IMG/VR virus record: IMGVR_UViG_3300046011_000883
Location: 1 to 22,784 of that record
Length of the DNA: 22,784 bases
Strand: one strand, 5' to 3'
Origin: a virus
Shown here piece by piece: positions 2 to 14,862 of the stretch. The position numbers and the translations under genes were made by a program. The notes below the pieces were generated by a model. It saw nothing but the letters and a program-made list of their open reading frames with translations, had not been told where the DNA came from and ran no database searches. Position 1 is the stretch's first letter; each line of letters starts with the position of its first letter.

Positions 2-448
2 GATTTAGATGCAGAGGTATCTGCATTTGAAACTATGTGGGGTAGAAGTCCTACGCTTATCGTAGTAGATAACCTTATGGACATTGCTGTTGATGGTGGC
101 GAAGAGTTTGCTGCTATGCGACAGGTTATGAAAGAACTCAAGTATCTTGCAAGAGATACCAATGCATGTGTACTAGTGTTACACCATACTAAAGAAGGTG
201 CTCAGGGTTATCCATGTCAGCCACGCTCAGCGTTGCAGGGTATGGTTAGTCAGGTACCTGCTATGGTATTGACAGTAGGACAGATGATGCAGGGACCAGA
301 TGCATACCTATGCGTAGCCCCTGTTAAGAACCGTTATGGTAAAGCAGACTTTACTGGTAACACATATGTATCTTTATCTTTTGACCCAGCCTCTATGTAT
401 TTAGAAGATGTGGTCAGAGACTATAGACAAGTGGAGATGAAAGTATAA
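2..448 (+). CDS. RecA/DnaB-like replicative ATPase, C-terminal part (5' truncated by window)
   Basis: The reading frame is open from base 2, so the first in-frame ATG (35) is probably internal and the gene begins outside the window. The visible part has a Walker B-like strand (PTLIVVDNL) followed by a RecA-fold strand ending in VLVLHHTKEG, then a basic segment APVKNRYGKADFTG. This matches the C-terminal half of the RepA/AAA_25 or DnaB-like ATPases that serve as replicative helicases or helicase-like recombinases in phages. Walker A is missing because of the truncation. The stop overlaps the next start (TAATG). The neighbouring nuclease and primase support a replication role. Helicase and RecA-like recombinase cannot be told apart from this half; the ATPase fold is fairly sure, the exact role is not. 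Confidence 0.75.
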   Translation, partial: DLDAEVSAFETMWGRSPTLIVVDNLMDIAVDGGEEFAAMRQVMKELKYLARDTNACVLVLHHTKEGAQGYPCQPRSALQGMVSQVPAMVLTVGQMMQGPDAYLCVAPVKNRYGKADFTGNTYVSLSFDPASMYLEDVVRDYRQVEMKV

Positions 449-588
449 TGCCAAAGTTTGAAATCACACTAGAAAAAAACAAAGTAGTTGTTATCCGTGC
501 ATCTAGTATAGATATTGCACGTGAACGTGCAGAGAAACTAGAAGCAAATGGATGGGCAATTGCAATCATTACAGAGTTAGATAAGTAA
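448..588 (+). CDS. Small hypothetical protein, 46 aa
   Basis: This short frame starts on the ATG that overlaps the previous stop (TAATG) and ends in another TAATG overlap with the nuclease gene, so it is wedged with no spare base between two real genes. The product begins MPKFEITLEKNKVVVIRASS, then has a helix-like charged stretch (IDIARERAEKLEANG) and ends AIAIITELDK, a small alpha/beta pattern. No family is recognised. Translational coupling on both sides is the main evidence that it is expressed. It may be an accessory factor of the replication module, but nothing in the sequence shows a function. Confidence 0.7.
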   Translation: MPKFEITLEKNKVVVIRASSIDIARERAEKLEANGWAIAIITELDK

Positions 589-935
589 TGGGTAGCGCAG
601 CCAAAGCAAAAGGCTCAGGAGCAGAGCGAGATGTAGTTAAATACCTCAAGCAATGGTTCCCTTATGTAGACAGACGCTTGGCTGGTGCAACCCTAGACAA
701 AGGTGACATCTCTGGTATTCCTGGTGTTACCATTGAGATAAAAAACCACGCCAAGATGGACTTGGCGGGTTGGACAGAAGAGTTGATAGTCGAGATGGCT
801 AACGACAACGCATGGACAGGTGTGGTGTGGCACAAACGGAAGGGTAGGGGAAGCCCTGAAGATTGGTACTGCACCATGCCTGGCTATGTGTATGTAGATT
901 TATTAAGGAGAGCAATTGGAAAGGGACAAGCCTGA
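588..935 (+). CDS. PD-(D/E)XK nuclease, Holliday-junction-resolvase-like
   Basis: A 115-aa protein of the size usual for small archaeal/phage-type resolvases. The nuclease motif is readable: an N-terminal glutamate in GSGAERDV (E13), an aspartate in KGDISG (D40), then E50-x-K52 in TIEIKN, the classic D...ExK metal-binding arrangement on a beta hairpin. Such proteins cut branched DNA, resolving recombination or replication intermediates before packaging. The start overlaps the 46-aa gene stop (TAATG). Its 3' end overlaps the primase zinc-finger gene by 20 nt. Another PD-(D/E)XK endonuclease role, such as a VRR-NUC-like one, is possible; the fold call is stronger than the substrate call. Confidence 0.75.
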   Translation: MGSAAKAKGSGAERDVVKYLKQWFPYVDRRLAGATLDKGDISGIPGVTIEIKNHAKMDLAGWTEELIVEMANDNAWTGVVWHKRKGRGSPEDWYCTMPGYVYVDLLRRAIGKGQA

Positions 936-1299
936 CATTGGTGAGTACCTCCACTACATAGGCGCCACCGTGCCTGCTATAGGCAGCGGTTGGCGCAAGA
1001 TGAAGTGCCCGTTTCATATAGATTCACATGCATCAGCAGCAGTAAACTTTGATAAGAACGCCTTTATCTGCCACGGTTGTGGAGTTAAGGGCGATACTTA
1101 TTCCCTAATTATATACAAAGAAGGTGGTGATTATCGTGAGGCTGTCAAATTCGCAGCGTCAGTTCTTGCTTCAGGCAACACAGAGATACGCAGCCAAGAT
1201 AAATCTCGCAGAAGATTATCTGGCAAGCCGTCAACTCTCGGTAGAAGAGGCAAGCATCTTTCATCTGGGGGTGGTAGACGAACCGCTTCCAGGTCATGA
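916..1299 (+). CDS. DNA primase, N-terminal CHC2 zinc-finger part
   Basis: The start is a TTG at 916 set by a strong Shine-Dalgarno AAGGAG (905..910), five bases upstream and inside the nuclease gene. Residues 31-55 hold the primase zinc finger: C31-P-F-H34 and C52-x2-C55 within ICHGCGVKGD, the DNA-binding ribbon of DnaG-type primases. Sequence up to about residue 90 (GDYREAVKFAASV) looks like normal primase. The tail after that is Arg/Ser/Gly-rich and low in complexity, as expected when reading past the point where the coding frame has moved. The TOPRIM half lies in the +1 frame (1124..1768). The pair therefore looks like one primase divided by a frameshift, or two subunits translated separately. 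The primase call is firm; the mechanism is open. Confidence 0.82.
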   Translation: MERDKPDIGEYLHYIGATVPAIGSGWRKMKCPFHIDSHASAAVNFDKNAFICHGCGVKGDTYSLIIYKEGGDYREAVKFAASVLASGNTEIRSQDKSRRRLSGKPSTLGRRGKHLSSGGGRRTASRS

Positions 1300-1768
1300 G
1301 CCTTACAAAGGTAGACTTGCTATCCCATACATTACACCATCAGGTGTAGTTGATATTAGATTCCGTTCACTGCATGGTGAAGACCCTAAGTATATGGGTC
1401 TAGTAGGTGCAAAGACTACAATGTTTAATACACAAGCATGCTTTGTTGCAGATAAATACATTTGCGTCACCGAAGGTGAGTTCGATTGCATCATGATGAG
1501 TGTCAAAACCTCACATCCTACGGTAGGTATTCCTGGTGCAAACAACTGGAAACCTCACTATAGTAAGATTTTAGATGACTTCGATGTGGTCATAGTCCTT
1601 GCAGACGGTGATGCTGCAGGGCTAGAGTTCGGTAAGAAAATCAGTAGAGAGTTAGGTAATGTCAACATTATCAGCATGCCTGATGGCGAAGACGTCAATA
1701 GCATGATGATTAAACAAGGAAGTGAGTGGCTAGATGAGCGAATCAGAGAGTGCGTTACCCCCGCTTGA
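1124..1768 (+). CDS. DNA primase, C-terminal TOPRIM part
   Basis: This frame carries the catalytic TOPRIM domain: VTEGEFD (E117, E119) and VLADGDAAG (D161, D163), which bind the metal ions for primer synthesis. Before it come a helical segment (LAEDYLASRQLSVEEA) and a primase core-like strand LAIPYITPSG. The frame opens at a GTG at 1124; GTGs at 1127 and 1136 are alternatives, and AAGGTG at 1121..1126 could serve the 1136 start as a Shine-Dalgarno. The first 15-20 residues read poorly, while plausible primase sequence appears near QRYAAKINLAEDY, suggesting entry from the upstream frame around 1170..1200. The overlap with the zinc-finger frame is 176 nt. There is no helicase domain in this chain; the ATPase upstream may supply it. 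Confidence 0.82.
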   Translation: MVIIVRLSNSQRQFLLQATQRYAAKINLAEDYLASRQLSVEEASIFHLGVVDEPLPGHEPYKGRLAIPYITPSGVVDIRFRSLHGEDPKYMGLVGAKTTMFNTQACFVADKYICVTEGEFDCIMMSVKTSHPTVGIPGANNWKPHYSKILDDFDVVIVLADGDAAGLEFGKKISRELGNVNIISMPDGEDVNSMMIKQGSEWLDERIRECVTPA

Positions 1769-8705: not shown

Positions 8706-9137
8706 TTAGCAAGGTGGAGGGCTTGGATACCCGCTTGTTGAACAGGCAACTGTCTCTGAACACTCACCAGTAAAAGATACGTCTGAGGTTGTAGTGAAGG
8801 ACCCACCAAATGCAGTGGTGCAATACCAGGTAGTTGCTGGTGGTGGTGAAGAGCAAGCCTGAGACTCTGTTTCAGTTGTTGATGAAGTCTCTGTATATGT
8901 AGAGCAGTCAGATGCTGTACAAGTTCTTGTGCCATTTACAGTACGAGTACGACTCTGAGTATTGTTCACACAAGCAGAATAAGCAGACCATTCTCCGTAT
9001 GTATAACTCCAAGCACCACAAGTAGGTGTACAAGTTGGTGGCGTTGGTGGTGGAGTAGGAGGTGGCTCGGGAGGTGGGGGTGCTGGTGTTACCGTTGAGT
9101 ATCCTGCAGCAATTACGCCATATAGAAAATGTGACAT
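8706..9137 (-). CDS. Pro/Cys-rich protein with thrombospondin-1-like segment, 143 aa
   Basis: A short start (MSHFLYGVIAAGYSTV) leads into a polyproline stalk (residues 18-35, PAPPPPEPPPTPPPTPP). Residues 42-95 resemble a thrombospondin type-1 repeat: W43 and W50 spaced as in WxxW, SAYSAC, then Q-S-R-T-R-T and paired cysteines (C56, C73, C78, C95). A second cysteine block follows (C106, C126, C132) and the chain ends PPPC. Ten cysteines in all, an even number, fit disulphides in an extracellular environment such as a virion surface. The start overlaps the fibre-like gene's stop (TAATG). The TSP1 likeness is by eye and could be convergent; a virion adhesion role is inferred. Confidence 0.7.
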   Translation of the reverse strand: MSHFLYGVIAAGYSTVTPAPPPPEPPPTPPPTPPTCTPTCGAWSYTYGEWSAYSACVNNTQSRTRTVNGTRTCTASDCSTYTETSSTTETESQACSSPPPATTWYCTTAFGGSFTTTSDVSFTGECSETVACSTSGYPSPPPC

Positions 9138-11208: not shown

Positions 11209-14200
11209 TTAGTCTCTTCCATTAAAGTAGTTAGTGATGTCTGCAATGTTTTTTATTGTTAGCGTATTGCGGAATATGGCTGCACCAATGAACTCCATAA
11301 AGGCATAAGTACTAGCAGTAGGTGAGATTGCACCTATTCTTAAAGGATTTATTGAACCAACTGGCGTAGTTATTGTACTTATACTTGCAGTAGTAGCAGT
11401 ACCAGCATTTTTAATTAAACTAATTAAATTAGTTGAACGGTCTACGATTGCTACGTGAGTATTAAGAACACCATTTACCCAACCTGCAGGAATAGATGTG
11501 CTATCTGTAGCAGCAACTGCAGCAGTTCCACTTACTCCAGAGTAAACTCTATTTACACCACCAGATTGTGATGTAACAGCAAGCCAATAACCAGGTTCAA
11601 CTGTTCCAGCAACAATGGTACGATTTCCAATAAGCGCACCGCTTATTGCTGTATCCCATTGTCTGTGAATTACAAGATAGGTAAACGAATCAGTAGCACC
11701 AAAGTTCAAGAAGTCTGTAGTGCTATTGCTAAAGGTGTTAGTTGCTCCTGGGTAGAGGTAACCAGCATCAATAACACCAGCACTGCGGAATGTGCTACCA
11801 GAACGGTTGATTGTTACAGTGGCACCATTAGTTGAGGATTCAGTAAATGTTGTCTGGTTAAGGCTGGTGATGCTGTTCTCAAAGTTAGCATCGAAGGCTA
11901 CTGTGCCGTTGATACCGTTGAGTACCTGTGCGCGGAAGAACTTGCCACGGGATACTCCACCACCTTGACTATTTGAGCCAACCGCAAGAATCGCTGTTCC
12001 AGAGTAAATACTGGTTACTCCAGCAGTAGTTTGAGTAGTTCCTAATTGAGTCCAAGTAATACCGTCATCTGAAGTATAGAAAATAACATCGTTACCTGAT
12101 GCTCCGTTGTCTACATCAAGGGTTGCACGAATCCACTTTGTAGAACCATCTGTTATTCCTGTAGCAACTGATGATGTTTTAGTTATTGCAGTGCTTCCGT
12201 TTGTCGTCCAATAAAAATAAACTTTCCCATCAATACCAATTTCTAAATCATAAGAAAGTTGTCCAGTTGCCCATTTGCCTAATAAAGTATTTGCAGTAGA
12301 AGGTGTCCAGTCATCTAAGGCAACCTTCACACGTAGGTCCAAGTCACCTGTGATGTCCAGCGCAGCAGCATCAGGTGCTGAGGCATAGTTAGAAGTAACA
12401 CCTGGCAGATACAGATAGTTGCCAGTAGATACGAATGTACCAACGCCAGACTTGTTAATAGTAACTGTGTAGGCATTGCTTGAACGGTCTACAAATGTAG
12501 TCTGAGATGGCAGTGTGATTACTGAGGCATCAGCATCTAGGACTATTGTGCCATCAATACCGTTAAGGACTTGAGCACGGAAGAACTTACCCTTTGTTAA
12601 AGTAGAGGTTCCAGCATCTGCAGTTCCAATTTCTAGATTTCCACCACCGTCAAAGATTGATGTAACACCAGCGGTAGTTACAGTTGCTCCCAACTGTGTC
12701 CACGTTGTGCCGTCATCTGAACTAAAGAACTTGACATCATTACCACTGGCTCCGTTGTCCACATCGAGTGTGGCACGAACCCACTTGGTTGCTCCGTCGG
12801 CAATACTTAAAGCAACTGTAGAAGTTTTTGTTATTAAAGTACTACCGTTGGCAGACCATCTGAAGGTAAGTGTTGAATCAGAATTTACTAATAGTGAGTA
12901 ACTTCTATTTCCACCAGACCATTTTCCAAGCATTGATTGGTTAGTTACGGCACTCCAGTCATCTAATGCAAACTTGGCACGTAAATCAATATCTCCTGTA
13001 ACGGATAGTGGCGGTGTATCAGATACCGTCATATAGTTGCCAGAGGCACCAGAGAGGTAGACATAGTTCTCGGCTGCAGTTGAATGAGCCATATAGCGGT
13101 TGTTGACTTCCATATAGTCATCAGTACCAAAGAGCCAAGTAGGTTGAGTTACAGCAACAGTTTTGCGTCCAGAGGTGGATCGGTTGATGGTAACTGTTTG
13201 ACCAGTAACTGCGGTAAAGGATGTAGCAGCACCTGTAGTAATAACTGAGGTGTCTACATCGAGGACTGTTGTACCGCCAATGCCGTTGAGGATTTGTGCG
13301 CGGTAGACTTTACCTGTAAGCGGAGTCGTACCGATATCAGGAATTGCTCCAATACGCACAGGTGCTGTACCGACATAAATGCTTGTAACACCAGCGTTTG
13401 TTACTGTACTTCCCAACTGTGTCCAACTTGTTCCGTTGTCTGATAAGAAGAACTTGACATCATTACCAGAGGCACCATTATCTACGTCTAATGTGGCACG
13501 AACCCATTTTGCTGTGCCATCTGTTACACCTGTTGCAATTGTACTTGTTGCCGTTGTAACCGTACTGCCATCGGCTGACCATTGAAAAGTAACAAAACCT
13601 GTTGAGTTAATTGCTATCTTGTAACTGCGATTGCTTAGTGTTTGCTTAGCAAGTAATTCATTTTGAGTGGCTGGAGTCCAATCGTCAAGTGCTCCATACC
13701 AACGTAGGTCAATATCACCTGTAATATCCAATGCTGCTGCATCTGGTACTTCCAAATAATTTGTAATAGACCCAGGCAGATACACATAATTAGTGCCAGT
13801 ATGGTCTAGGAACTTAGGATCGTTAGAGTCTGCAGCAAGGCTAGAGCCAACAGTAGTTGGGAGTAGTGAGCCAGCAGTGCCATAGTTGGCAACCGTTCCT
13901 ACGCCATTAACTGTAACTGTCTGACCAGTAGTAGCGGTAAAGGTGTCTAGGTTAGAAGACTTGTAATCGGTAGCAATGTTGACATCAAGGACTGTTGTAC
14001 CGTCAATACCGTTAAGAATCTGTGCTCGGTAGATTTTCTGCGCTTGAGCGATTGCAAGATTTGTTTGAGCACCAATTTGAATTTCCGTTGTACTTACATA
14101 AATGTTTCCACTTGTTACAGTAACATTTGTTCCTAATTGAGTCCAAGTGGTTCCATCGGTAGAAGTAAAGAACTGACAGACACCAGTTGCTGCTACTCTA

Positions 14201-14862
14201 GTGGCTCTAATCCACCTTGCTACACCATTTGGAATTGATAAAGCCACTGTTGATTCAGCAAAAATTCCTGTTGTTCCATCTGAAGAAACTCGTAATTGAA
14301 CCCCATTTGATGAGTTCATACCAAGGCTATAAGACCTTTGGTTGCCCGTAGATTGATATTTACCAATCCAAATTGAAACGGCAGAAGGCGCCCAGTTGTC
14401 CATTGCAACATAGACTCTTAAATCAATATCGCCAGTAATATCAAGATTGTTAGCATCTGGTACAGATAGACGGTTTCCGTCAATATTAGGCAGATAAACA
14501 TAACCAAGGCTACCCCAGTTGGTAGGAGTAGCAGCATCTACATAGTAAGAAGCAGAGCGTGCAGTAGTTCCCTTAAGTAGTACCTCTGCTGGGTGATTGA
14601 TGGTGCGTAGTGCATCAACATCAGACAAGCCAGTAGTTCCTGCTAGTTCATTACAAACTGCAGTAAGTCCCTTGTAATTATTATCTGTACGGTTAGGGTC
14701 AACAATGTAGTTGAGAGCACCCAATAACCCAAGACCTGAGGTACCTGCCCAAACGTTGGCAGCACCTTGCTCTTCTAGGAAGTCATCTCTATCTGGGTAT
14801 ACGCCATAGTTTGCGATACGGTTGAGTTCTGCACATAATGGACTACCAGTATTACCAGCCAT
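11209..14862 (-). CDS. Large virion protein with four tandem LamG/ConA-lectin-like domains, 1217 aa
   Basis: The first 110 residues are a non-repeated adaptor (CAELNRIANYGVYPDRDDF; NYIVDPNRTDNNYKGLTAVC). Four copies of a 215-240-residue beta-sandwich domain follow, each opening with YVYLPG-like and carrying DITGDIDLR-x5-[MLD]-D-[DN]-W, then WVRATLDVDNGASGNDV-type strands and KxYRAQILNGI. DIDLR motifs lie near residues 146, 384, 625 and 841. The last 165 residues (LNFGATDSFTYLVIHRQW ...) form a fifth, diverged sandwich. These are concanavalin-A-like/LamG folds, which bind sugars or act as spacers. It most likely forms the host-contacting tail fibre or spike. Shine-Dalgarno GGAAGG lies eight bases before ATG. 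The family class is firm, the ligand unknown. Confidence 0.82.
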   Translation of the reverse strand: MAGNTGSPLCAELNRIANYGVYPDRDDFLEEQGAANVWAGTSGLGLLGALNYIVDPNRTDNNYKGLTAVCNELAGTTGLSDVDALRTINHPAEVLLKGTTARSASYYVDAATPTNWGSLGYVYLPNIDGNRLSVPDANNLDITGDIDLRVYVAMDNWAPSAVSIWIGKYQSTGNQRSYSLGMNSSNGVQLRVSSDGTTGIFAESTVALSIPNGVARWIRATRVAATGVCQFFTSTDGTTWTQLGTNVTVTSGNIYVSTTEIQIGAQTNLAIAQAQKIYRAQILNGIDGTTVLDVNIATDYKSSNLDTFTATTGQTVTVNGVGTVANYGTAGSLLPTTVGSSLAADSNDPKFLDHTGTNYVYLPGSITNYLEVPDAAALDITGDIDLRWYGALDDWTPATQNELLAKQTLSNRSYKIAINSTGFVTFQWSADGSTVTTATSTIATGVTDGTAKWVRATLDVDNGASGNDVKFFLSDNGTSWTQLGSTVTNAGVTSIYVGTAPVRIGAIPDIGTTPLTGKVYRAQILNGIGGTTVLDVDTSVITTGAATSFTAVTGQTVTINRSTSGRKTVAVTQPTWLFGTDDYMEVNNRYMAHSTAAENYVYLSGASGNYMTVSDTPPLSVTGDIDLRAKFALDDWSAVTNQSMLGKWSGGNRSYSLLVNSDSTLTFRWSANGSTLITKTSTVALSIADGATKWVRATLDVDNGASGNDVKFFSSDDGTTWTQLGATVTTAGVTSIFDGGGNLEIGTADAGTSTLTKGKFFRAQVLNGIDGTIVLDADASVITLPSQTTFVDRSSNAYTVTINKSGVGTFVSTGNYLYLPGVTSNYASAPDAAALDITGDLDLRVKVALDDWTPSTANTLLGKWATGQLSYDLEIGIDGKVYFYWTTNGSTAITKTSSVATGITDGSTKWIRATLDVDNGASGNDVIFYTSDDGITWTQLGTTQTTAGVTSIYSGTAILAVGSNSQGGGVSRGKFFRAQVLNGINGTVAFDANFENSITSLNQTTFTESSTNGATVTINRSGSTFRSAGVIDAGYLYPGATNTFSNSTTDFLNFGATDSFTYLVIHRQWDTAISGALIGNRTIVAGTVEPGYWLAVTSQSGGVNRVYSGVSGTAAVAATDSTSIPAGWVNGVLNTHVAIVDRSTNLISLIKNAGTATTASISTITTPVGSINPLRIGAISPTASTYAFMEFIGAAIFRNTLTIKNIADITNYFNGRD
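11713..14502 (-). repeat. Four tandem diverged lectin-domain repeats within the 1217-aa gene
   Basis: Matching DNA blocks encoding (D/I)-T-G-D-[IL]-D-L-R occur near 14420, 13705, 12982 and 12334, spaced about 715, 723 and 648 nt. The third copy is preceded by an extra linker (VTQPTWLFGTDDYMEVNNRY). Divergence is greater at the first copy, and copies 2-4 share whole strands such as WVRATLDVDNGASGNDV, suggesting more recent duplication or homogenisation. Confidence 0.82.

Follow-up and report, generated by a model that had tools for sequence, protein, structure and literature searches.

How does a virus build a DNA primase when the two halves of the enzyme lie in different reading frames? The question is raised by the window analysed here, the whole stretch of a virus record of 22,784 bases, in which a zinc-finger half and a TOPRIM half occupy two frames offset by +1. 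A preliminary description of this locus had considered a programmed +1 (or -2) frameshift, a one-base sequencing error and separate translation of two subunits; its motifs and positions for the two halves proved correct when both frames were checked. Based on comparison with related sequences, we propose that the two polypeptides would be translated separately from overlapping genes, and we assign this reading a probability of roughly 0.93. The features discussed below are collected in Table 1.

Table 1. Features of the primase locus and adjacent genes (positions within the window)
Feature	Position	Strand	Remarks
DnaB-like helicase	2-448		family matching; encoded just upstream
RusA-like resolvase match	588-935		family matching
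Shine-Dalgarno-like AAGGAG	905..910	+	sequence; ahead of ORF1
ORF1, zinc-binding primase subunit	916..1299	+	127 aa, TTG start, TGA stop
Folded zinc-ribbon domain of ORF1	916..1176	+	includes last helix (1132-1176)
Internal Shine-Dalgarno AAGGTGGTGAT for ORF2	1121..1131	+	within ORF1, near-perfect
ORF2, catalytic (RPD/TOPRIM) primase subunit	1136..1768	+	210 aa, GTG start
Shared 29 nt	1148..1176	+	read as a zinc-domain helix (frame 0) and as the first RPD helix (frame +1)
ORF1 tail, basic, R/G/S-rich	1177..1296	+	40 residues, 12 K/R, 2 D/E; predicted disordered (pLDDT below 50 over most of residues 87-120)
CATGAG	1295..1300	+	His-Glu of ORF2 PGHE; out of frame, ORF1 TGA stop (1297-1299)
ORF, 104 aa	1734-2048	+	overlaps ORF2 end

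Both halves are recognizable as parts of a DnaG-type primase. ORF1 matches PHROG_360 (8e-27) and, above cut-off, the Pfam family Zn_ribbon_DnaG (PF01807, 6e-12). It carries the zinc ribbon C-P-x-H ... C-x-x-C followed by a short conserved C-terminal helix; C31, C52 and C55 are invariant among 58 ORF1 sequences and H34 is conserved in at least 90% of them. Its model aligns structurally with 1d0q (Z 11.0) and 2au3 (Z 10.8), residues 1-87 corresponding to residues 3-90 of A. aeolicus DnaG (2au3). ORF2 matches PHROG_849 (2e-44) as well as Toprim_2, and contains the E-G-E-x-D and D-x-D-x-x-G motifs of the RPD/TOPRIM core, with E113, G114, E115, D117 and G162 invariant and D157 and D159 conserved in at least 90% of 60 ORF2 sequences. 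Modelled from GTG 1136 (pLDDT 94.4), it aligns with the RPD of 2au3 at Z 22.2, residues 4-210 corresponding to residues 100-352. ORF2 can be regarded as a DnaG-type primase core that would carry out template-directed RNA primer synthesis. It has no counterpart of the DnaG sequence beyond about A. aeolicus residue 352 and so lacks the C-terminal helicase-binding domain; the next gene (1734-2048) gave no match in searches of Pfam, PHROG and NCBIfam.

The junction between the halves deserves attention. In the predicted folds, the last zinc-domain helix of ORF1 (residues 73-87, AlphaFold2 pLDDT about 90) and the first helix of ORF2 (residues 5-19, nt 1148-1192) are read from common DNA. Their counterparts in 2au3 are sequential, the first ending at residue 90 and the second beginning at residue 100. 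Because the two complete predicted domains overlap by about 30 nt, no single polypeptide could hold both of them whole. The second frame had been thought to become primase-like only near QRYAAKINLAEDY; in fact, its family similarity begins earlier, at VRLSNSQRQFLLQAT, and the predicted RPD helix starts at residue 5.

The arrangement recurs throughout the relatives. The +1 offset is present in 77/77 IMG/VR relatives with both halves readable, and in 76 of these exactly 97 aa separate CPFH from the ORF1 stop, which is far beyond chance. All fetched phage and viral loci, a redundant set in which some contigs are present twice, show the +1 offset in 258 of 261 cases, with one +2 and two untypable. 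Zinc-binding domain and RPD do not share one polypeptide in the window or in any relative with both halves, and an uninterrupted primase, which had been named as evidence against a genuine split, was found neither among these 261 loci nor among 34 loci from bacterial genomes. ORF2 matches 1453 phage records, mostly from phages of Mycobacterium, Streptomyces, Cutibacterium/Propionibacterium, Rhodococcus and Gordonia. Such records, representing more than a thousand related phages, are usually annotated with two DNA primase genes, and the split is seen in sequenced isolates from five host genera. Overlapping primase genes gp31/gp32 were already listed in P. acnes phages (PMC3094311). Window ORF2 is at most about 48% identical to members of the annotated phage collection; the two-gene annotation is already widespread, and the window adds a new, divergent case to it. 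As a separate observation, three loci in actinobacterial genomes (L286, L295, L296) contain ORF2 but not the part of ORF1 upstream of the tail, and retain tail sequence like GGYVPAWRRR; they look like degraded copies.

Where would translation of ORF2 begin? Its alignment across lineages has a common N-terminus, which in the window is VRLSNSQ and corresponds to GTG 1136. The start codon at this site is GTG or ATG in 71/72 aquatic loci (the remaining one has CTG, with in-frame GTG codons just upstream), TTG or ATG in 51/60 mycophage-type loci, ATG in 60/60 Cutibacterium loci and GTG in 21/22 Streptomyces-type loci. Judging from this conservation, GTG 1136 is most likely the start of ORF2, and the internal start is conserved with few exceptions. 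The previously given overlap of 176 nt would be right if ORF2 started at GTG 1124, but the better-supported GTG 1136 reduces it to 164 nt; nor do both halves have GTG starts as supposed, because ORF1 begins with TTG.

The internal Shine-Dalgarno sequence points in the same direction. For AAGGTGGTGATTATCGTG in the window, the anti-SD duplex energy is -15.3 kcal/mol, compared with -8.2 kcal/mol for the region upstream of ORF1's own start at TTG 916, and in most aquatic and mycophage-type relatives the internal element beats other ORF1 windows. Its duplex is stronger than that of synonymous shuffles in mycophage-type loci (-16.7 vs -11.6) and modestly so in aquatic ones (-14.2 vs -13.0). Most mycophage-type loci read like AGGAGGTGAGTTTTG, that is, a perfect Shine-Dalgarno, an in-frame TGA and then TTG; the TGA, within AGGAGGTGA, shuts the ORF2 frame just upstream of the start. 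Two observations weigh against such an internal start. Cutibacterium phages have no Shine-Dalgarno at the ORF2 ATG (-2.5 kcal/mol). In 9/60 mycophage-type loci (L101, L102, L106, L107, L109, L117, L136, L137, L149) the start site behind a strong Shine-Dalgarno is occupied by the minor start codons ATC or ATT, so a rare non-NTG start would be needed there, which is possible. Conservation of RLSESQ was dropped as proof of ORF2 translation at overlapping loci, because the conserved EAVRIAE of ORF1 would yield RLSESQ passively; non-overlapping loci were used instead. Independently of the above, the GenBank start of ORF2 is set too far downstream in RER2, RGL3, phiCAM, KSSJEB and 20ES (L084, L085, L087, L095, L298), which removes the first RPD helix, and Serenity (L092), CaCom2 (L093) and Fabian (L086) have no ORF1 annotation.

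The non-overlapping loci provide a natural control. In Streptomyces phages Nishikigoi and Paedore and in Streptomyces sp. NRRL F-5123, ORF1 ends and ORF2 starts about 15 nt later. The gap in Nishikigoi contains GGAGGAGA, and the order is TAA, GGAGGAGATCCAGC and TTG, the last being the ORF2 start. These loci retain the N-terminus of ORF2 (LSTSQKEMLEEA) as well as the tail of ORF1 (SRYGG...GGYVPAWKRK), although the two have no DNA in common. As they form one single clade nested among overlapping Streptomyces-type loci (support 100/100), the overlap was probably resolved once.

With these data, the alternatives can be weighed. One possibility is that this particular contig carries a degraded gene or a one-base error of sequencing or assembly. 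The frame change itself, and nothing more, speaks for it; the same frames, offset and stop position in 76/77 readable relatives, the recurrence of the split in isolates from five host genera and the coding constraint on both frames speak against. The relatives refute this explanation, and we consider its probability practically nil. A programmed +1 (or -2) frameshift in the overlap, producing a fused zinc-RPD primase alone or beside separate products, is another candidate. The +1 offset occurs in nearly all lineages, and ORF1 contains an SD-like element, as the RF2 +1 frameshift signal does. If ribosomes changed frame after about nt 1165, the fusion point would lie close to the boundary between the domains, and nine mycophage-type loci lack an NTG start. 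Nevertheless, among 52 representatives the overlap has no stretch of 90%-conserved nucleotides longer than 4 nt, and no conserved shift site or +1 slippery site; moreover, a conserved start codon lies behind the Shine-Dalgarno, at a distance suited to initiation. Any single frame change would cost part of one helix of the predicted folds, the non-overlapping clade produces the same two proteins, and the tail and stop of ORF1 are under selection. Such a frameshift thus finds no support, and we regard it as very improbable. Separate translation of two subunits, on the other hand, has strong support from the comparison of relatives.

A variant of the two-protein explanation, not exclusive of it, concerns the tail: ORF1 might be functional only to about residue 87, the rest being a passive reading of ORF2 DNA. 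Two observations would fit passive reading: tail residues are more variable than the zinc domain, and tails of the Streptomyces and Cutibacterium groups hold nearly as much R/K and G as the synonymous null predicts. Against this stands strong avoidance of those ORF2 synonyms (T in third place) that would create a stop in ORF1. In the aquatic group they number 0/582 in the tail part of the overlap vs 1391/2820 downstream, related sequences being counted that are not independent, so that p-values overstate the strength; among 90% representatives the figures are 0/77 vs 187/379, and among mycophage-type representatives 0/249 vs 141/963. The Streptomyces and Cutibacterium groups, with few 90% representatives, show no significant avoidance. 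For the aquatic group, a null from ORF2 residues and codon use leaves frame 0 open in about 1% of synonymous versions, whereas it is open in 72/72 observed loci. Tails of the aquatic and mycophage-type groups contain more R/K than the null predicts, and those of the aquatic group alone also more G. ORF2 synonymous change is lower in the overlap than outside in aquatic (0.205 vs 0.356) and Cutibacterium (0.067 vs 0.158) loci, and slightly lower in the remaining groups. The stop itself is affected as well, since the CAT of ORF2 PGHE, which creates it, is used in 62/64 mycophage-type loci vs 18/107 elsewhere in ORF2. Finally, the tail survives where the ORF2 overlap is gone. Because ORF2 codons in the overlap shun all ORF1-stopping synonyms, the tail is a selected product, and purely passive reading appears unlikely. 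The suggestion that other actinophages have a similar R/G-rich tailed zinc-finger half was confirmed.

We therefore return to two separately translated subunits, for which the following scheme can be proposed. Overlapping genes on one mRNA would encode a DnaG-type primase as two polypeptides. Some ribosomes would begin at TTG 916 and produce the zinc subunit with its 40-residue basic tail, terminating at TGA 1297-1299. The Shine-Dalgarno at 1121-1131 would direct other ribosomes to GTG 1136 within ORF1, from where they would produce the 210-residue RNA-polymerase (TOPRIM) subunit. The subunits would then cooperate in trans, the zinc subunit reading the template and the RPD subunit synthesizing the RNA primer next to the DnaB-like helicase, whose gene lies just upstream. 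Two independent coding frames, an internal start and a selected tail are supported by the sequence comparison. We infer that both proteins are translated in the cell and associate; by analogy with DnaG and T7 gp4, they may act jointly as a primase, and the tail may bind nucleic acid, the partner subunit or the helicase. It could serve, for example, for docking or for binding ssDNA, and in many lineages it ends in a P-x-W-basic motif. We judge it slightly more probable than not that this tail, encoded over the RPD gene, adds a new functional module to split primases and that the locus specifies a true two-subunit DnaG-type primase.

Family matching identified further neighbours as a DUF1599 protein, a metallophosphoesterase, a sigma-like protein and a WhiB protein, and an Rfam search of the window found no known RNA element. 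Since the relatives are almost wholly phages of actinobacteria, the host is likely to be an actinobacterium, probably a freshwater one. Elsewhere on the minus strand, a 1217-aa protein (11209-14862) has several long internal repeats (NYVYLPG...DITGDIDLR) and a LamG-like look; PHROG_5313 covers part of it, and it is possibly a tail or adhesion protein. A 143-aa protein at 8706-9137, also on the minus strand, is rich in Pro/Thr/Ser/Cys and has no PHROG match.

Taken together, a tempting frameshift story gives way to simpler, testable two-subunit priming from overlapping genes in a very large phage group. The locus is also a clear example of an extended overlap coding in two frames, for which nature supplies a resolved control; in addition, it indicates start-site errors in several GenBank phage records. 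In the open-access literature we found no dual-coding, internal-start or resolved-overlap evidence and no study of the mechanism, which does not prove that such work is unpublished.

Among known systems, the closest is the two-gene DNA primase (PHROG_360 + PHROG_849) of cluster A mycobacteriophages and of Gordonia, Rhodococcus, Streptomyces and Cutibacterium phages, which has the same halves in the same order, with the +1 overlap in most. The window differs by its GTG start of ORF2 and by a tail end without Trp (RRTASRS), whereas many other tails end in P-x-W-basic or PW[ST]. Bacterial DnaG unites zinc-binding domain, RPD and helicase-binding domain; its zinc and RPD folds are alike (2au3, Z 10.8 and 22.2), but the window primase consists of two polypeptides and has an extra basic tail on the zinc subunit. 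RF2 (prfB) represents +1 programmed frameshifting, with an SD-like sequence in the upstream frame followed by the +1 frame; in the window the corresponding site has neither a stop nor a slippery codon, and the conserved element is a start codon. In T7 gene 4 (63-kDa and 56-kDa products), an internal start gives a polypeptide that has the RPD but lacks the zinc domain, and the zinc domain of one subunit can act on its neighbour. That internal start is in frame, whereas the one in the window changes frame, the zinc half being its own protein and the helicase a separate gene.
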